This document shows, in pieces, positions 227 through 8,414 of a stretch of 43,525 bases of DNA. A program made the position numbers and the translations under genes. Position 1 is the first letter of the stretch; each line of letters begins with the position of its first letter. Below the pieces are notes generated by a model. The model did not search any database. It was given only the letters and a program-made list of their open reading frames with translations, and had not been told where the DNA came from. Source of the DNA: an uncultured Thiodictyon sp. (lineage in GTDB: Bacteria; Pseudomonadota; Gammaproteobacteria; Chromatiales; Chromatiaceae); assembly GCA_903837595.1 (NCBI GenBank), contig CAILVI010000471.1, forward strand, positions 1 through 43,525, written 5' to 3'.

Positions 227-307
227 GTGCGCACGCGTTCTTGAAGCTGAATTTTGAGCCTGCCGAGGGCAGGCAGTCGATGGGCTCTCGCCAAGAGGCA
301 CACAGTA

Positions 308-811
308 ATGAACCGACTTGAGCCCCCGTTCCCACCGCCTGCCCAGGTCAATGCCTTTCTTGCGGACCATATCGGCCTGCTGCGGCGCAGTTACCGCCAC
401 CTCACCGGGCGCGACCTGATCGATTCCGGGCTCACCGACCAAGCCGCTGCACTGGCCTTGTTCGAGGCGCCCTTCGCGTTGCTCTCGCACGGCACTCAGG
501 CCGATCCGATCCTAGCCTATGGTAATCGCACGGTGCTGCGGCTGTTCGAGCTCACCTGGGAGCAACTCACCGCCATGCCCTCGCGCTACACGGCGCAGGC
601 GCCCAATCGGCAGGAGCGGGCGCGATTGCTCCAGCAGGTGACGGCGCGCGGCTATATCGATGACTATTGCGGGGTGAGGGTAGCGGCGAGCGGCCGGCGT
701 TTCATGATCGAGAACGCCTGTGTCTGGAATCTGGTCGATGCGGGGGGCGCCTGTCACGGGCAGGCGGCGACCTTTTCGCACTGGCGCTATCTGGAGTCGA
801 GTGCCGACTGA
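308..811 (+). CDS. MEKHLA domain-containing protein
   Basis: The 167-residue product looks like the MEKHLA family (Pfam PF08670), a PAS-like sensory fold known from bacteria and from plant HD-ZIP III proteins. Supporting sequence includes the SYRHLTGRDLI stretch, then LFEAPFALLSHGTQADPILAYGN and the LFELTWEQLTAMPSRYTA segment, which fit the family pattern. No catalytic residues are evident, so it is probably a ligand- or redox-sensing stand-alone domain; its target is unknown. An in-frame ATG also exists at 254, but the family usually begins close to the ATG at 308, which is used here. No strong ribosome binding site is seen at either start. It sits alone between the tRNA and a 322-base spacer. 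Confidence 0.78.
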   Translation: MNRLEPPFPPPAQVNAFLADHIGLLRRSYRHLTGRDLIDSGLTDQAAALALFEAPFALLSHGTQADPILAYGNRTVLRLFELTWEQLTAMPSRYTAQAPNRQERARLLQQVTARGYIDDYCGVRVAASGRRFMIENACVWNLVDAGGACHGQAATFSHWRYLESSAD

Positions 812-1133
812 TGTAGACCGCCGGGTGCGGTCGCATTCTGATATTATTGGCATTCTAAGAACCAAATCCGGACAAGGCGCGAATCCTGGGGAATCGACCT
901 GCCGCCCAGGGTCGCCCGATCAACGTCCGCCCAGGGTCGCCCGATCAACGTCCGCCCAGCCAGACTCAGGCCATGCACGCCAACCCCTGTTCACGCATCG
1001 CCACACCTGCCCCCGGGGGCGGGGGACGCGCGTCAATTCGCATGCCATCCCGGCCGCTCGGTCGGTCGCGCGACTGCGCGCCCGTGCTCGACCCGTCCCG
1101 CGGACGGTGCACCGGACGTAGGGCCCCTGCGGC
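812..1133. other. Intergenic spacer with 25-bp tandem repeat
   Basis: No gene is supported here. A 25-bp unit beginning CGCCCAGGGTCGCCC is present twice head to tail (903-927 and 928-952), followed by a 7-base start of a third copy (953-959). The two full copies are identical by eye. The rest is GC-rich spacer leading to the GTG start at 1134; an in-frame TAG at 1119-1121 limits how far upstream that gene can begin. Confidence 0.7.
903..959. repeat. Tandem direct repeat, 25-bp unit, 2.3 copies
   Basis: Two identical 25-bp copies (903-927, 928-952) and a partial third. The short length and perfect identity suggest recent slippage or duplication. It lies about 175 bp upstream of the GGDEF-EAL gene start. 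Confidence 0.85.
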
Positions 1134-3335
1134 GTGTCGGTGAGCGCCGCCGCGACGGCCGCCGCCGTCCTGTGCGTCTTGGGACTCGCCCTTGGATGGC
1201 GCCTGATACGCCGCCGCTGGTCTGACATTTTGCTAGGTGCGGTGGTTCGCGGCGCGCCCGAGCAAGCGATCCGCCCCGCCTTAGAGGCCCAACGCGGTAG
1301 CCTGCGCGCCATCGCCGACGGCGCCGCGGAGGGGATCTTCCTGACCGATGACCGCGGGCGGATCGTCTATGCCAATCCCGCCGGGGAACAACTCCTGGGC
1401 TACCCCGCGGGCGCCCTGATCGGCTGCGATGCCCATGCCACCCTGGCGCCCCCGGAGTTACAGGGGCAGTGCCGGCACGGCCTGGAGGGCTTCGCCCGGG
1501 ATGGCCGCGGGGAGTTTCTCGGCAAGGCCATTACGTTGCCGGCCATCCGTGGCGACGGCCGTCGGGTCCAGGTCGAACTGTGGGTCATCCCGCTCTGGCT
1601 GGATGAGTGCTGGCACGCCATCGCGGTCATGCGTGACCTCTCCGAGCGCCACGCACTGGAGCGCGACCTGGATGAGACCCGGCAGAATTTTCACAGCCTG
1701 GTCCAGGACAACCTCACCGGCATCCTGATCCTGGATGCCCAGGGCACGGTCCAATTCACCAACCCGGCGGCGGAGAGCCTGCTGGACGTCGGGGCGAACG
1801 GCCTGATCGGACAGCCGTTCGGCATCCCCGTCACCGGCGACCAAAGTGAGGCCAGGCAGACGGAGATTCGTACCGTCCGCCACGACGGCAGCGCCGGGGT
1901 AGCCGCCATGGGGGTGACCGAGACCCGCTGGCAGGGCCGCCCGGCCTATCTGGTCATGCTCCACGACATCACCGAACGCAAGGCCGAGGAGACCCGCATC
2001 CAACGCCTCGCCTTCCAGGACCGACTCACCGGCCTGCCCAACCGCGATCTCTTTTTCGATCGCCTGCACCAAGCCATCGAGTTTGCCTCGCGGGAGGGCA
2101 AGGGGCTGGCGGTGGTGTTCATGGACCTGGACCGCTTCAAGGTCATCAACGATACCCTGGGCCATGCGATGGGCGACGCCCTGCTGTGCGCGGTCGCCGA
2201 GCGCCTGGGCGCCCTGCCGCGCACCTCCGACACGCTGGCGCGCTGGGGCGGGGACGAGTTCACGGCGGTCTTCTATAATGTGGCCGACCAAGCCGGGGCG
2301 GACCGGATCGGGAAACGGCTGTTGAGCGCCTTCCTCCTGCCCTTCAACCCGGAGGGGCATGAGATGTACGTGACCCCGAGTATCGGCATCAGTCTCTTTC
2401 CTGCGCTGGCCACTGACCCGGACGTACTGGTGCGCCAGGCCGACGCGGCGATGTACGAGGCCAAGCGTCAGGGCGGCAACGCCTTGCGGCTGTACGATCC
2501 CAACACCGCCCTGACTGCCGAGTCCCGACTGGAGATCGAGCGCGACCTGCAAAAGGCCTTGCACCATGGTGAGTTGCTGCTGCACTATCAACCCCAGGTG
2601 GCGCTTGCCTCCGGTGAGTGTGTTGGCTTCGAGGCCCTGCTGCGCTGGCAGCGCCCCGGCTGCGGGTTGGTCGGTCCGGCCACCTTCCTGCCCCTGTTGG
2701 AAAGCTCCGGGCTCATCGTCGAGGTGGGCAGTTGGGTGCTGGAGGCGGCCTGTTGCCAATTGGAGGAGTGGTCTGCCGCCGGGCTCGTGCACTTATCCCT
2801 GGCGATCAATGTCTCGCCCATCCAGTCCGAGCGGGGGGACCTGTTCGCCCAAGTCGCCGAGACCCTGAATCGGCACGCGATCGATCCCCGGCGGTTGGTG
2901 CTGGAGTTTGCCGAGAGCGCACTTTTCGCCCACACCAACCGCTCACCGGACCTGCTGCAGCGCCTCGCAGAGCTTGGCGTAACATTGCATGTCGACGACT
3001 TTGGGACCGGATATTCCTCCTTCTCCGGACTGCGGCGTCTGCCCGTCGCCGCCATCAAGATCGACGAGCGCTTTGTGCATGATGTGGTGTCCGACGCCGG
3101 CAATGCTGCACTGGTAAGCGCCACCCTGACCCTGGCTCACGGCAATGGCAAGCAGGTGGTTGCCGAGGGGGTGGAGACCTTAGCGCAGGCCGCCACCCTC
3201 TACCGTCTGGGCTGTGACCTGGCCCAGGGCTATTATTTCGGTCGCCCGATGGTCGCGGCGGCGCTGCCGGAGTGGCTGCGGGGTTGGGGGCAGGGGAGTG
3301 GCGCGTGGCGCCTGGTGCGGGACCAGGAATTCTGA
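1134..3335 (+). CDS. PAS-PAS-GGDEF-EAL c-di-GMP signalling protein
   Basis: The 733-residue protein has one N-terminal membrane segment (about residues 6-25), two PAS domains (about 55-170 and 180-280), a GGDEF domain and an EAL domain. The diguanylate cyclase signature GGDEF is intact at 372-376, and an RTSD inhibitory I-site lies five residues before it (363-366), so product inhibition is plausible. The phosphodiesterase half keeps EALLRW (E500), DDFGTGYSS, KIDERF and the AEGVET motif, so both activities may be retained. The GTG at 1134 is the most upstream start possible because an in-frame stop lies at 1119-1121. The kaiA-like gene starts 80 bp after its stop on the same strand, suggesting it belongs to the clock cluster as an input or output module; that link is inferred from position only. 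Confidence 0.92.
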   Translation: MSVSAAATAAAVLCVLGLALGWRLIRRRWSDILLGAVVRGAPEQAIRPALEAQRGSLRAIADGAAEGIFLTDDRGRIVYANPAGEQLLGYPAGALIGCDAHATLAPPELQGQCRHGLEGFARDGRGEFLGKAITLPAIRGDGRRVQVELWVIPLWLDECWHAIAVMRDLSERHALERDLDETRQNFHSLVQDNLTGILILDAQGTVQFTNPAAESLLDVGANGLIGQPFGIPVTGDQSEARQTEIRTVRHDGSAGVAAMGVTETRWQGRPAYLVMLHDITERKAEETRIQRLAFQDRLTGLPNRDLFFDRLHQAIEFASREGKGLAVVFMDLDRFKVINDTLGHAMGDALLCAVAERLGALPRTSDTLARWGGDEFTAVFYNVADQAGADRIGKRLLSAFLLPFNPEGHEMYVTPSIGISLFPALATDPDVLVRQADAAMYEAKRQGGNALRLYDPNTALTAESRLEIERDLQKALHHGELLLHYQPQVALASGECVGFEALLRWQRPGCGLVGPATFLPLLESSGLIVEVGSWVLEAACCQLEEWSAAGLVHLSLAINVSPIQSERGDLFAQVAETLNRHAIDPRRLVLEFAESALFAHTNRSPDLLQRLAELGVTLHVDDFGTGYSSFSGLRRLPVAAIKIDERFVHDVVSDAGNAALVSATLTLAHGNGKQVVAEGVETLAQAATLYRLGCDLAQGYYFGRPMVAAALPEWLRGWGQGSGAWRLVRDQEF

Positions 3336-3415
3336 GTGAATACAAGATTTTTCAAATGCGTTATTTTGCGGACGACGACCATTCCCACCTTCCACGACAC
3401 ACGAGCCCCCGCGCC

Positions 3416-4369
3416 ATGAGCGAGTCAGAGACCGCGTCGGCGGTGCCGCTGGACCAGGCGCGAGCGGGTGAGGCCGCGCCCGATCGGGGAATCGCCGTGC
3501 TGGCGATTGCGGATCCACCGGCCAGTTCCCCGGTACTGATGGTGGCGCAGGACGACCCCGCCGCCGCGCCGCTGCGGGTGACGCACGCCCCGCTGTCGCT
3601 GTCGGCGGTGTCTGCACTCCTCGCCGCAGGGGCATTCGACTGCCTCCTGCTGAACCTCGGGTCAGCGGACGCTCAAGCGACCCAGGCCCTGGCCGAGGTG
3701 CGGGCACTGGCACCGGACCTGCCGATCGTGGTCTATACGGACAGCGACGACGCCGCGCTCGGTCGGACCCTGATTGCCGCCGGCGCCGAGGACTGGCTGT
3801 GCGCGGCGGACCAGGACGCCCGGCACCTCGGGCGCGCCCTGCGCCACGCGGTGGAGCGCCACCGGCTGCGTCGCCAGCAGCGGCGTTGGGCGGAGGCCGC
3901 GGACTTGGTCGACCAGCGCGAGAGCGAGGAGCGCGGGGTGGGGCGCCTGCTCGGGGAGTCCGGGCGCGCCGGGGAGGCCGCGCGCATCTATGGCGCGGCC
4001 ACCCTGCGCGACAGCAATCCCGGTCTGTTCGACGAGTTGTTGGAAGCCTATCTGGTGCTGATCGAGCACGCTGCTGCCAGTCAGATGTACCGCCTGCGGC
4101 CGGCGGCGCAGGACAGCGCCCGCCCCTTGGCCGAGCGGCTCGGTTTCATGGGGGCCGGACCGCGCGACGTGATCGAACTGCACACCGAGGCCCTGCGCCG
4201 GTTGGCCCAACGGATGGTGCCCACGGACGAGCACCACGTCGCCGTGGAGGGCCGCATCGTGGTCCTGGAACTGATGGGCTATCTGGCGAGTTACTATCGC
4301 CGGTATTATTTGAGTCGACAATCGCTCGCCGTCGAACCGGCGAACGCGCCCGACCGTCAACCGGGCTGA
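3416..4369 (+). CDS. KaiA-like protein: pseudo-receiver plus KaiA/RsbU-type helical domain
   Basis: The 317-residue product has an N-terminal response-regulator-like fold (about residues 38-145) whose active site has decayed: the phospho-acceptor Asp position reads LLLNLG (N80) and the conserved Lys is replaced in WLCAAD (A130). A charged linker (about 146-190) follows, then an all-helical domain (about 200-300) with the pattern LLEAYLVLIEHAA, AQDSARPLAERLGFMGAGPRD and VIELHTEALRR, typical of RsbU N-terminal domains. SCOP and InterPro group that fold with the KaiC-binding C-terminal domain of cyanobacterial KaiA. The gene lies 25 bp upstream of kaiB. The architecture and position suggest a KaiA-type regulator of KaiC phosphorylation. 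In-frame ATGs also exist at 3272 and 3356; 3416 is chosen because the earlier ones add a low-complexity tail or overlap the upstream gene. Confidence 0.7.
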   Translation: MSESETASAVPLDQARAGEAAPDRGIAVLAIADPPASSPVLMVAQDDPAAAPLRVTHAPLSLSAVSALLAAGAFDCLLLNLGSADAQATQALAEVRALAPDLPIVVYTDSDDAALGRTLIAAGAEDWLCAADQDARHLGRALRHAVERHRLRRQQRRWAEAADLVDQRESEERGVGRLLGESGRAGEAARIYGAATLRDSNPGLFDELLEAYLVLIEHAAASQMYRLRPAAQDSARPLAERLGFMGAGPRDVIELHTEALRRLAQRMVPTDEHHVAVEGRIVVLELMGYLASYYRRYYLSRQSLAVEPANAPDRQPG

Positions 4370-4394
4370 CCCCCTCGCAATCATGGGCGCCATC

Positions 4395-4697
4395 ATGGGA
4401 AAGTATTTATTGAGGCTGTATATCACCGGCCGCACACCGCAGGGCAACCGCGCCATCGCGAACCTGCAGCGTATCTGCCAGACCGAGTTGGCGGGGCGCT
4501 ATGAGATGGAGGTCATCGACGTGATCGAGGACCCCCAGGCGGCCGAGGACGCCCGCATCATCGCCACCCCGACCCTGATCAAGGCCCTGCCGCCACCGCT
4601 GCGGCGCATCATCGGGGACCTCTCGAATAAAGATAAGGTATTGATCGGATTAGACTTGAGTGGTCCAGAAGACCCCAATGGAGACCATCATGGCTGA
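4395..4697 (+). CDS. kaiB: Circadian clock protein KaiB
   Basis: KaiB is the thioredoxin-like, fold-switching clock protein that binds the KaiC CI ring. The 100-residue product matches it along its length: KYLLRLYITGRTPQ at the start, the central stretch with YEMEVIDVIEDP, the ATPTLIK segment with the family's cis-proline region, and the LPPPLRRIIGDLS ending. An upstream ATG at 4383 would add four residues; 4395 fits the family start better. It overlaps kaiC by 8 bp, so the two are translationally coupled. Confidence 0.96.
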   Translation: MGKYLLRLYITGRTPQGNRAIANLQRICQTELAGRYEMEVIDVIEDPQAAEDARIIATPTLIKALPPPLRRIIGDLSNKDKVLIGLDLSGPEDPNGDHHG

Positions 4698-6225
4698 GCC
4701 CAAGAAGCTCCCCGCCGTCACCAAGCTGCCCACCGGCATCGACGGTTTTGACCACATCGGCCTGGGCGGCATCCCGGCGGGTCGTACCACCCTGGTGGCC
4801 GGCACTGCCGGCAGCGCCAAGACCATCTTCGCCGCCCAGTTCCTGGCCGAGGGCATCCGCCAATACGACGAGGCCGGGGTTTTCGTTACCTTCGAGGAGT
4901 CGGGTGAGGACATCCGCGCCAACGTCGGTTCGCTCGGCTGGGATGTGGCAGCCTGGGAGGCCGAGGGCAAGTGGGCCTTCGTCGACGCTGCCCCCCAGCC
5001 TGGGGACGAGGTGGTAGTAAGCGGCGCCTTCGACCTGGGCGCACTGGTGGTCCGGGTGGAGGCGGCCGTGCGGCGCATCGGCGCGACGCGGGTGGCGATC
5101 GACTCGCTGGGGGCGGTGTTCTCCCGCTTCGAGAACGAGGTGATCGTGCGTGCCGAGCTGTTCCGGCTCGCCTCTGCACTCAAGGGCCTGGGCGTCACCT
5201 CGATCATGACCGCCGAGCGCACCAACGAATACGGCGAGATCAGCCGCCACGGGGTTGAGGAGTTCGTCACCGACAATGTGCTGATCCTGCGCAATGTGCT
5301 GGAGGGCGAGAAGCGTCGGCGCACCATGGAGGTCCTGAAGTTCCGCGGGACCGTCCACCAGAAGGGTGAGTACCCATTCACCATCATGCCGGATCAGGGC
5401 ATCGTGGTGATCCCGCTCTCGGCCATCGAACTGGACCAGCGCTCGTCTTATACCCGTATTACCTCCGGCAATATTGAGTTGGACGCCATGTGCGGGGGCG
5501 GTTTTTTCCGCGACTCGGTGATCCTGGTGTCCGGCGCCACCGGCTGCGGCAAGACCTTGACCTCCACCGAGTTCATCGCCGGGGGCGTGGCCCAGGGCGA
5601 GCGCTCACTGCTGCTGGCCTTCGAGGAGAGTCGCGACCAGTTGAGCCGCAACGCCTCCGGCTGGGGCCGGGACTTCGACCGCTACGAGCGCGAGGGTCTG
5701 CTCAAGGTCGTCGCCGTCTACCCGGAGGCCGCGGGGCTGGAAGACCACCTGATCCGCATCAAGCGCGAGATCGACTCATTCAAGCCCAACCGGGTCGCGG
5801 TGGACAGCCTCTCGGCCCTGGAGCGGGTCAGCTCCATCAAGGGCTTCCGCGAATTCGTGATCAGCTTGACGAGTTTTATCAAGCACAAAGAGATTGCCGG
5901 GCTGTTCACGGCCACCACCAGTAGCTTGATGGGTGGTGAGTCGGTGACCGAGACCCATATCTCCACCATCACCGACGCGATCATCCTGTTGCGCTATGTT
6001 GAGATGTTCGGCGAGATGAAGCGGGGGCTCACGGTGCTCAAGATGCGCGGCTCGGCCCATGACAAGGACATTCGCGCCTTCACCATCGACGGACGCGGCA
6101 TGCATATCGGCGCCCCCTTCCGCAACGTCACCGGCATCCTCGCCGGCCACCCGCGCCATGTCCCCCCCGCGGAGATCGAACGTCTGGGGCAACTCTTCAG
6201 CAACGAGGGGCCGCTGGGGGATTGA
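4690..6225 (+). CDS. kaiC: Circadian clock ATPase/autokinase KaiC
   Basis: KaiC is a double-RecA-domain ATPase that forms hexamers and autophosphorylates in its second domain. The 511-residue protein has a CI Walker A GTAGSAKT (38-45) and a CII Walker A GATGCGKT (282-289), each followed by a catalytic Glu pair (FEESGED and FEESRDQ). The phosphorylation motif HISTITD is intact; S425 and T426 correspond to the Ser431/Thr432 pair of Synechococcus KaiC, so a phosphorylation cycle is possible. The R-M-G-S-A-H-D stretch after it is also conserved. The ATG at 4690 follows GGAG (4680-4683) at a good distance and overlaps the kaiB stop; ATGs at 4660 and 4678 would overlap kaiB further. Confidence 0.97.
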   Translation: MAEPKKLPAVTKLPTGIDGFDHIGLGGIPAGRTTLVAGTAGSAKTIFAAQFLAEGIRQYDEAGVFVTFEESGEDIRANVGSLGWDVAAWEAEGKWAFVDAAPQPGDEVVVSGAFDLGALVVRVEAAVRRIGATRVAIDSLGAVFSRFENEVIVRAELFRLASALKGLGVTSIMTAERTNEYGEISRHGVEEFVTDNVLILRNVLEGEKRRRTMEVLKFRGTVHQKGEYPFTIMPDQGIVVIPLSAIELDQRSSYTRITSGNIELDAMCGGGFFRDSVILVSGATGCGKTLTSTEFIAGGVAQGERSLLLAFEESRDQLSRNASGWGRDFDRYEREGLLKVVAVYPEAAGLEDHLIRIKREIDSFKPNRVAVDSLSALERVSSIKGFREFVISLTSFIKHKEIAGLFTATTSSLMGGESVTETHISTITDAIILLRYVEMFGEMKRGLTVLKMRGSAHDKDIRAFTIDGRGMHIGAPFRNVTGILAGHPRHVPPAEIERLGQLFSNEGPLGD

Positions 6226-6280
6226 GTGGGAGCGCCGCGCTCCCCGCCCTCGTGACACCGCGGCGGCTGTGAAAGTATTC

Positions 6281-6372
6281 CCGTAGGATGGGTTGAGCAC
6301 AGCGAAACCCATCGTAAGCGCCTCGATAAGGCATTGATTGCTGCTTTTCGCTGCGCTCTGCCCGGCCTACGG
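6281..6372. repeat. Dispersed ~90-bp palindromic repeat, copy 1
   Basis: This element opens with CCGTAGGATGGGTTGAGC and closes with an approximately inverted counterpart ending CGGCCTACGG. Two further copies lie at 25452-25541 and 43200-43285. All share the inner AGCGAAACCCATCG and CGCTGCGCTCT segments, which are complementary and would form a long hairpin. It is non-coding and resembles REP or MITE-like intergenic elements. It lies between kaiC and the lipoprotein gene. Confidence 0.85.
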
Positions 6373-6416
6373 AGGGTGCGTGGATTGGTGCGGCGGCGAA
6401 TACCTTCATCGTCTCT

Positions 6417-6489
6417 GCGGCGATGTCGCCCATGGGTCAGGCGCTCCGCGCCGCGAGCGCCGGTGGCCACAGTTATGATCAAGACCGGA
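6417..6489 (+). repeat. Dispersed ~75-bp repeat family, copy 1
   Basis: The sequence from about GCGGCGATGTCGCCC to ATGATCAAGACCGGA is clearly related to 6888-6971 on the same strand and to 13271-13352 and 25367-25440 in the opposite orientation. Shared blocks are GTCAGGCG, GCGCCG, GAGCGCCGGTGG and ATGATCAA. The copy ends inside the Shine-Dalgarno sequence of the following lipoprotein gene. Confidence 0.7.
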
Positions 6490-6498
6490 GCAAACTTC

Positions 6499-6858
6499 AT
6501 GAGCCAAGCCCCTTTGTATCCGTCATCCGTCGCGTTGCCCGGCACCCTCACCCTGGCGCCGATCCTTACCGCCCTGGCACTCGCGGGTTGCGCCGCCTCA
6601 CCGAACCAGCCGACCGGCGTCATCGACATCACCGTCAAACCCGGCGACACCGGGACCTGTGAGTCCACCCCCTGCCAGGTCAAGTTGGTGATGCCGCCGG
6701 GTAAGGGGACTTACGAAGTGACGGGCAACGAGGTGCGGGTCGGCACCTTCCCGGCAGGTCAGACGGTGGCGCTCGGCGGTTACTGGCAGTCCCAGAAATT
6801 CGCCATCGTCGGTGCCGGGGTGCCGCCGGTCTATGTCTATATCCCGGCGGACCGGTGA
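6499..6858 (+). CDS. Small predicted lipoprotein
   Basis: The 119-residue product has a signal peptide ending in a lipobox, LALAGC, followed by AASPNQP, so it is expected to be lipidated on that Cys after export. The mature part contains PGDTGTCESTPCQVKLVMPPGKG and a C-terminal beta-rich region ending VPPVYVYIPADR. No enzyme motif is visible and I do not recognise a named family. The ATG at 6499 is chosen because GGAG (6487-6490) precedes it by eight bases and it places the signal peptide properly; the open frame extends upstream only through repeat sequence. Confidence 0.75.
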   Translation: MSQAPLYPSSVALPGTLTLAPILTALALAGCAASPNQPTGVIDITVKPGDTGTCESTPCQVKLVMPPGKGTYEVTGNEVRVGTFPAGQTVALGGYWQSQKFAIVGAGVPPVYVYIPADR

Positions 6859-6983: not shown

Positions 6984-8414
6984 TTGATAACCGCCATTGA
7001 ACAAGCCCGGCGGCAGGTGGCGAGTGGCACCACGGCGAAGAAAAAGGCACTGCTCGGCCAATTTTTCACGCCCGCCAGCACGGCTGAGTTTATGGCCGGC
7101 CTCTTTCCTGATGCCCGCGGTGGGACCTGTCACTTGCTCGATGCGGGTGCCGGAATCGGCTCGCTGTCCTGCGCCTTCCTAGAGCGCTGCCTGTCCGGCC
7201 GGCTCGATTTCAATCATGTGCAACTGACGGCCTTTGAGTGTGACGAGGCGATCCGGCCCGAGCTGGACCGCTCGCTTTCCAGGTATCGGGACAAACTCGG
7301 CTTTTCCTATGAGGTCGTGGGCGGCGATTTCATCGAGTCCGCGGTCAATCGCATGCAGTTCGGGCAGCATGGCTTCACTCACGCCATCCTCAATCCGCCC
7401 TACAAGAAGATCAGCAGCAACTCCCGTCATCGCCTGCTGCTGCGCCAGGCAGGCATCGAGACCGTCAACCTCTATTCTGCCTTTGTCGCCCTGGCCCTGC
7501 TGCTGATGGCGCCCGGCGGTCAACTCGTGGCGATCATCCCGCGCAGTTTCTGCAATGGGCCATATTACCGACCCTTTCGCAACCTCTTGCTGGAGCGCGC
7601 GGCCATCCGGCACTTGCACCTGTTCGAATCACGTACCCAGGCATTCAAAGACGATGACGTGTTGCAGGAAAACATCATCATCCGTCTGGAGCTTGGTGCC
7701 CCGCAAGGCCAGGTGACTATCTCCACATCCACCGATGACCGCTTTGCCGACCTGTGCCGCCACGACTACGCGTTTGACCGGATCGTGCGCGCGGACGATC
7801 CGCAGCGGTTTATTCATATTCCGACGGCTCCGGGCACCGGGACCAGCGAATGGGCGCCGGCCATTGGCTGTTCGCTGGCCGATCTTGGGATCAGCGTTTC
7901 CACCGGTCCAGTCGTCGATTTCCGGTTGAAGGAGCATCTGCGCGACAGCCCGGGGCCGGGCACCGTTCCCCTGCTCTACCCCGGCCATTTCAGCCGTGGG
8001 GGCGTCGTCTGGCCCAAGGTCGACCTCAAGAAGCCGAACGCGATCCGGCGCAATGGTGACACCGAGAAATGGCTTTACCCGAACGGATTCTATTGCGTGG
8101 TGCGCCGCTTTTCATCGAAGGAAGAGAACCGCCGAATCGTGGCGAGCGTCGTCGATCCAGCCGCGTTCAGCGATGCCCCGATGTTGGGCTTTGAGAACCA
8201 CCTTAATCTGTTTCATGAACACAAACAAAGCCTGACCGCCGCGCTGGCGCACGGTCTGGCGGTTTTTCTCAATACGACCGCGGTTGATGAATGCTTCCGT
8301 CGCTTCAGCGGCCATACTCAGGTCAATGCCACCGATCTGAAACAGATGAAATACCCGAGCCGTGCGGAATTGATCGAGATGGGCGACGAACAGCTGCGGG
8401 TGTTGAGGACTTGA
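6984..8414 (+). CDS. DNA adenine methyltransferase, Eco57I/PstI-type (orphan)
   Basis: The 476-residue protein transfers a methyl group from S-adenosylmethionine to adenine N6 in a specific DNA site. The N-terminal motif is GQFFTP (25-30), the SAM-binding motif I is DAGAGIGS (53-60) and the catalytic motif IV is NPPY (137-140). The C-terminal target-recognition part ends with SGHTQVNATDLKQMKYPSR, a hallmark of the M.PstI/M.BsuBI/Eco57I group. The length is close to those enzymes (about 500). The start codon is TTG after GGTGAG. No cognate endonuclease is adjacent; the next gene encodes a PSD-like protein, so this is an orphan modification gene or half of a lost restriction system. Confidence 0.85.
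   Translation: MITAIEQARRQVASGTTAKKKALLGQFFTPASTAEFMAGLFPDARGGTCHLLDAGAGIGSLSCAFLERCLSGRLDFNHVQLTAFECDEAIRPELDRSLSRYRDKLGFSYEVVGGDFIESAVNRMQFGQHGFTHAILNPPYKKISSNSRHRLLLRQAGIETVNLYSAFVALALLLMAPGGQLVAIIPRSFCNGPYYRPFRNLLLERAAIRHLHLFESRTQAFKDDDVLQENIIIRLELGAPQGQVTISTSTDDRFADLCRHDYAFDRIVRADDPQRFIHIPTAPGTGTSEWAPAIGCSLADLGISVSTGPVVDFRLKEHLRDSPGPGTVPLLYPGHFSRGGVVWPKVDLKKPNAIRRNGDTEKWLYPNGFYCVVRRFSSKEENRRIVASVVDPAAFSDAPMLGFENHLNLFHEHKQSLTAALAHGLAVFLNTTAVDECFRRFSGHTQVNATDLKQMKYPSRAELIEMGDEQLRVLRT

Follow-up and report, generated by a model that had tools for sequence, protein, structure and literature searches.

A KaiA3-type kai cluster with a degenerate receiver in a Thiodictyon-like purple sulfur bacterium

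Introduction

KaiA3, a chimera of a response-regulator receiver and KaiA, has been described from cyanobacteria and five other genera, and its published members include Roseiflexus and Chloroflexus (PMC11372060). The KaiA3, KaiB3 and KaiC3 proteins of Synechocystis PCC 6803, in which KaiA3 is Sll0485, show circadian oscillation in vitro, and the phospho-accepting Asp of KaiA3 is reported as conserved except in Pleurocapsa and Microcystis (PMC11372060). Here we describe a three-gene kaiABC-like cluster in a 43,525-nucleotide stretch of DNA (hereafter, the window), which is contig C471 of a 7.79-Mb genome (G000), that of a Thiodictyon-like purple sulfur bacterium. The KaiC encoded in the window shares 97% identity with the KaiC of a metagenome-assembled genome (MAG) from an uncultured Thiodictyon.

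Homologues of kaiA, and the whole operon, also occur in other prokaryotes, and the presence of kaiABC outside cyanobacteria has been explained by lateral transfer from cyanobacteria; the N-terminal domains of KaiA vary even among cyanobacteria (Dvornyk and Mei, 2021, PMC8113500). Rhodospirillum rubrum has a kaiA3 orthologue, Rru_A3293, upstream of kaiB2 and kaiC2 (PMC10931921). Purple sulfur bacteria are not among the KaiA3 genera named in the available text of PMC11372060, no purple sulfur bacterium is named for kaiABC operons in that of PMC8113500, and Chromatium okenii has no complete kaiABC according to its authors, in the available part of their report. Our search of the literature, covering sources available in part, turned up no account of KaiA3 from this group.

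Results

The cluster encodes a KaiA3-type protein, KaiB and KaiC

The three-gene cluster is real, conserved and of the KaiA3 type, and the protein encoded upstream of kaiB is best read as a divergent KaiA3 and not as an independent invention. Its features in the window are as follows.

3416–4369, + strand: KaiA3-type protein of 317 residues, with a degenerate receiver, a long helix and a KaiA-like C-terminal domain
3485–3865, + strand: pseudo-receiver domain, residues 24–150 (N80 codon at 3653–3655; A130 replaces Lys; acidic pair not intact)
3977–4324, + strand: KaiA-like C-terminal domain, residues 188–303
4383–4697, + strand: kaiB (the MGKY start at 4395 is the start common to relatives)
4690–6225, + strand: kaiC, 511 residues from the ATG at 4690, which overlaps the kaiB stop (reading frame open from a GTG at 4660)
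5962–5967, + strand: Ser-Thr phosphorylation site of KaiC, S425/T426 (THISTITDA, aligned with SHISTITD of solved KaiC)
6118–6222, + strand: C-terminal segment and tail of KaiC with EIERLGQLF, the putative KaiA docking site

Both kaiB and kaiC are genuine. KaiB matched PF07689 (E 2.2e-27, 95 bits against a cut-off of 27) and passed NCBIfam NF006798 (111.7 bits, cut-off 110), its score for TIGR02654 (106.4) lying under the cut-off of 145.3. KaiC passed both NF006799 (717.9, cut-off 408) and TIGR02655 (632, cut-off 546), and contains two RecA-like domains, catalytic Glu pairs (FEES in both domains) and the HISTITD phosphosite. A sequence-only reading of the window had proposed a KaiB and a KaiC with S425/T426 intact, and both the residues and the coordinates proved right. 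Strong purifying selection acts on KaiB and KaiC, the ratio of nonsynonymous to synonymous substitution rates (dN/dS) being 0.04 for each in comparison with locus L051. The CI Walker A motif of KaiC (window 4801–4824) reads GTAGSAKT, with Ala where Gly is usual; this position is Ala in 71 of 89 aligned KaiC rows (four of them duplicates), Gly in 16 and Ser in 2.

The 317-residue protein combines a receiver fold with a KaiA-like C-terminal domain

Taken alone, the window protein resembles a receiver weakly, scoring 17.8 bits with Response_reg (E 0.0039, cut-off 30.2), and neither KaiA nor RsbU_N was matched at E values up to 1. Its two-domain reading draws on relatives, profiles and predicted structure. 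The N-terminal response-regulator receiver fold is present, and the C-terminal domain is a KaiA-like four-helix domain, for which plain Foldseek gave weak matches. In the structure comparison KaiA chains occupy the top seven places among the 50 matches listed, at 12–19% identity, so that the predicted fold is not unlike KaiA; no RsbU chain is among these 50, which does not exclude RsbU likeness. The dimer-interface residues R262, L272, Y276 and R277 of KaiA are retained in the C-terminal domain, and G288, Y294 and R295 are invariant across 62 family members.

Two observations set the protein apart from canonical KaiA: five KaiA sites reported as fixed in cyanobacteria, in a source available in part, are not retained here, and the best of the 62 relatives reached only E 0.003 with the canonical KaiA model PF07688. 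The sequence-only reading had proposed a helical domain of the RsbU/KaiA type. The KaiA half of this proposal is upheld by the predicted structure and the relatives; as to the RsbU half, Pfam gave about equally weak matches to RsbU_N and to KaiA, each in 5 of the 62 family members. BLAST matches to the window protein supplied the seed for the C-terminal domain profile, and the Pfam scans covered 66 of the 71 listed C-domain proteins (all but L056, L058, L059, L123 and the second L114 copy).

The C-terminal domain is carried upstream of kaiB in many lineages

A KaiC scan of named genomes yielded 150 relatives, and the analysis was continued with the best 80. The C-domain is carried by 67 of these 80 loci, always upstream of a same-strand kaiB; as the loci were selected by KaiC similarity, this proportion is not a frequency among all KaiC. 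The distance to kaiB is at most 300 bp in 65 of the 67 loci, and 436 bp and 748 bp in L093 and L107. Judged by title, the carriers belong to ten bacterial phyla, with one archaeal MAG and three unassigned. Among them are loci titled Roseiflexus and Chloroflexus, by way of which the window protein is linked, indirectly, to Sll0485. The archaeal carrier is a 604-kb Helarchaeota-labelled contig that holds a KaiA-like gene, kaiB-kaiC twice and then a histidine kinase (L109:4658-11001), reflecting either archaeal carriage or mis-binning.

The 13 loci without the C-domain (L080, L082, L090, L096, L097, L102, L115, L119, L120, L125, L126, L129 and L130) are titled as eight Gemmatimonadota, two Chloroflexota, one Armatimonadota, one Planctomycetota and one unassigned; in L102 and L115 the contig ends cut the upstream side. 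Eight Gemmatimonadota-type loci (L082, L090, L097, L119, L120, L125, L126 and L130) have no KaiA-like gene, a different KaiC tail and an opposite-strand histidine kinase upstream of kaiB, possibly representing another regulator.

In a genome search the C-domain was found in 8 of 93 genomes and 2 of 86 genera, and in 7 of the 8 genomes of the genus, the window's own genome being included in each case. The order KaiA-like gene, kaiB, kaiC is kept in 6 of these 8 genomes (the first gene of G006 is truncated where its contig begins), and together with the 67 of 80 loci this establishes the linkage to kaiBC in relatives that the sequence-only reading had left to be checked. G005 holds a broken kai locus (L050, C156, 2900-4300) with an internal loss in the kaiA-like gene and a kaiC that ends after about 62 residues, assembly error not being excluded, and G003 has neither a C-domain nor a KaiB match.

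The same reading had also raised a KaiA-type timer that arose separately. We set independent origin aside, as the family is broad and syntenic: the same C-domain is widespread, receivers outside the genus are mostly intact (26 of 28) and the architecture is that of published KaiA3 (PMC11372060). Direct transfer from Roseiflexus is not supported: in a quick KaiC tree, with support from the Shimodaira–Hasegawa-like approximate likelihood ratio test only, Chromatiaceae join Competibacter-type rows (97), and Roseiflexus lies in another, weakly supported part. A plasmid search with the Roseiflexus C-domain gave no match.

The KaiC tail follows a similar distribution. An [LMY]F pair is present in 72 of 72 KaiC rows with a C-domain at the locus, as against 3 of 13 where the domain is lacking (contig ends cut two of these three), in a loose test that accepts the pair anywhere in tail positions 21–40. 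The ten rows lacking the motif are the Gemmatimonadota-type group (nine rows) and L080, amounting to one or two events, and a tree-aware test of co-variation, resting on two contrasts, has no power. This distribution agrees with the KaiC tail being the docking site, as in 5c5e, by its title a solved KaiA dimer with a KaiC C-terminal peptide.

The receiver has decayed in the Thiodictyon clade

Alignment confirmed what the sequence-only reading had said of the receiver: in the 317-residue protein N80 and A130 stand at the Asp and Lys positions, and the phosphorylatable Asp of KaiA3 is missing. Receivers were compared across the 34 receiver rows of family set A2, 28 outside the Thiodictyon clade and six inside. 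Outside the clade, Asp and Lys are both retained in 26 of 28 receivers (the exceptions are L110 and L112); within it, Asp is retained in two of six, Lys in none and the full catalytic set in none, and no acidic pair is intact in the five receivers where that stretch is present. Receiver dN/dS was 0.41–0.59 in five clade pairs (0.54–0.57 for the window receiver against two congeners) versus 0.09–0.15 in nine intact-receiver-clade pairs, while C-domain values were 0.00–0.24 in the clade pairs and 0.04–0.42 in the intact-receiver-clade pairs; these pairs are not independent, one C-domain value is not computable and some dS values are saturated. From these sequences it seems that the receiver lost its activity within this genus. 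Because nearer relatives have intact receivers, the decay is best explained as independent of cyanobacterial KaiA.

Most intact-receiver clusters have a same-strand histidine kinase nearby

Of the 33 intact-receiver rows, 30 have a histidine kinase on the same strand no more than 1 kb from the kaiA-kaiC span (two of the three without one are cut by a contig end), versus 11 of 38 others, the latter comprising 8 of 26 without a receiver and 3 of 12 with a degenerate receiver. Around the intact-receiver loci, same-strand kinases numbered 33, 8, 9, 3 and 2 in successive kilobases (59, 56, 54, 51 and 27 flanks, respectively), and opposite-strand kinases 0, 0, 1, 1 and 0. Seven kinases from the same loci had served to build the kinase model, and the base rate is given by these distance bins only.

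At the six Thiodictyon loci, the sequence available within 5 kb contains no same-strand kinase, the contigs of G006 and G004 being cut 0.1 and 1.7 kb upstream; in G007 an opposite-strand kinase lies 1.5 kb from the cluster. The Rhabdochromatium member has both an intact receiver and a kinase. A strict rule is broken by non-receiver members with kinase neighbours and by L065 and L105 (the Accumulibacter and Ignavibacteria members), in which Lys is replaced and yet a kinase adjoins. In a tree-aware test the receiver-kinase association, resting on three pairs, was not significant (kinase follows receiver 1.3, reverse 1.0, p 1).

The N-terminal halves joined to the C-domain vary

Receiver, receiver-PAS, PAS and protoglobin modules are all found joined to the C-domain. 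Response_reg was matched in 34 of 38 members of set A2; in set A5, PAS was matched in 17 of 18 longer members and Response_reg in three; and ten further members include L064 (three PAS domains) as well as L065 and L105 (receiver plus PAS). Another of the ten, from a Methylobacter MAG (L127:4621-5715), joins a protoglobin domain to the KaiA-like C-domain and is directly followed by kaiB and kaiC; such a protein would be suited to feeding oxygen or gas sensing into a clock. We infer from these arrangements that the end facing KaiC is constant and the sensing end variable.

A second kai locus lies in the same genome

A second Kai system (L042, G000:C506:8000-22000) has a KaiC frame at 3688–5619 and KaiB at 5679–5933 and 6131–6385, with a GGDEF-EAL-like gene nearby. 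Its KaiC has a C-terminal extension and matches, over 551 residues (E 2.6e-208), the solved structure 8dba, a KaiC with a C-terminal extension that we take to be from Rhodobacter sphaeroides. No KaiA-like C-domain occurs at this locus, the genome's one C-domain match lying in the window. A fourth KaiB match is on the minus strand of another contig (L043, G000:C327, 6571-6323), with no KaiC match in the 12 kb around it, and none of the genome's four KaiB matches (open frames of 118–162 residues) is a KaiB-bearing SasA-like kinase. The genome paper of Thiodictyon syntrophicum Cad16 mentions, in its available part, kaiCBB only. G007 has a tandem kaiB pair at 4.75 Mb, apart from the kaiB of the present cluster, which is at 3.37 Mb, so the present locus is probably not the kaiCBB described for Cad16.

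Neighbouring genes

Directly upstream of the cluster is one further gene of interest.

1134–3335, + strand: PAS-PAS-GGDEF-EAL protein of cyclic di-GMP turnover (Pfam EAL 4.2e-71, GGDEF 1.4e-45, PAS)

Its GGDEF motif is intact (GGDEF-type codons at 2247–2260). In G001, G007 and G005 a homologue precedes the kai genes; G002 gave no match, and the contigs of G004 and G006 end about 1.7 and 0.1 kb upstream. The linked protein is a possible candidate for output through cyclic di-GMP, or a co-regulated gene. No sigma-70-like promoter was found in 900–6600. Further upstream is a MEKHLA-domain reading frame at 254–811 (PF08670, E 3.8e-54), and downstream of kaiC, at 6984–8414, an Eco57I-type restriction-modification methylase domain (PF07669, E 6.9e-11).

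Discussion

We consider it probable, at roughly 0.7, that this Thiodictyon-like purple sulfur bacterium has in the cluster a system of the KaiA3-KaiB-KaiC type, acting by a KaiA-type mechanism. By analogy, the KaiA3-type protein most likely forms dimers through its C-domain and uses this domain to bind the KaiC tail, which would promote KaiC autophosphorylation at S425/T426; KaiB would then bind KaiC and capture the KaiA3-type protein, upon which KaiC would dephosphorylate. In most receiver-bearing relatives the receiver would serve as the input, phosphorylated by the adjoining histidine kinase. With both the receiver chemistry and the kinase neighbour missing, the receiver of the Thiodictyon genus is probably a structural pseudo-receiver, and the likely function of the protein, by the same analogy, is to activate KaiC phosphorylation as KaiA does, with no coupling to phosphorelay input.

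The same molecular steps, up to oscillation, would also serve an hourglass or state switch without a self-sustained rhythm, for example in adaptation to light, redox or stress. We regard this as a serious possibility, though somewhat less likely than not: patchy presence (8 of 93 genomes, 2 of 86 genera), breakage or absence within the genus, the second, KaiA-free kai locus of this genome and the KaiA-free hourglass timer reported for Rhodobacter (PMC11372060) suit an accessory function, whereas the Synechocystis homologues oscillate in vitro (PMC11372060) and KaiB and KaiC are strongly constrained (dN/dS 0.04), though any function would give that value.

It is unlikely that the receiver is simply eroding in a gene heading for loss in the genus, even though receiver dN/dS is raised in all five clade pairs, G005 holds a broken copy and G003 lacks a KaiB match, since the C-domain is constrained in the same pairs and six genomes keep an open frame in kaiABC order. 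Least probable is that the C-terminal domain is an RsbU-like partner-switching domain functionally unrelated to KaiA: KaiA chains take the top seven of the 50 structure matches listed, and 67 of 80 loci have the domain encoded ahead of kaiB.

Beyond a KaiA-type mechanism for this cluster, we tentatively suggest, at a little under even odds, that the KaiA C-domain is a general clock-resetting effector that occurs far beyond cyanobacteria, joined to exchangeable sensors (kinase-fed receivers, PAS arrays, protoglobin), and that Thiodictyon independently repeated the step taken by cyanobacterial KaiA, losing the kinase and making a pseudo-receiver while keeping KaiABC. These KaiA-like domains with different sensors and kinase neighbours are the more interesting part, more so than the single cluster. 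In the Synechocystis work, as far as its available text goes, the cognate kinase for KaiA3 was not identified (PMC11372060), and the same-strand kinases beside intact-receiver clusters are candidates for the kinase that feeds it. The Thiodictyon clade, from which receiver chemistry and kinase are both gone, offers a natural contrast, so that phosphorelay and other input can be tested between family members. The cluster is also a defined candidate clock from an anoxygenic phototroph that has, for comparison, a second KaiBC system free of KaiA.

What is new here is the pseudo-receiver variant of a KaiA3-type cluster. Compared with RsbU, the family shows weak Pfam similarity to the RsbU N-terminal domain in 5 of 62 members, and, unlike the RsbU context, no phosphatase or anti-sigma partner is found among the five genes at 254–6225 and the two scanned downstream. 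Like canonical cyanobacterial KaiA, the window protein joins a pseudo-receiver-like N-terminal domain to a helical C-terminal domain, but it is remote in sequence (12–19% identity among the structure matches listed). Unlike KaiA3 in general, its receiver has lost the Asp, the Lys and the intact acidic pair, although the published exceptions, in the available text, mean that the Asp is not an absolute criterion. Like Synechocystis KaiA3, it consists of a receiver and a KaiA-like C-terminal domain and is encoded directly upstream of kaiB, followed by kaiC.

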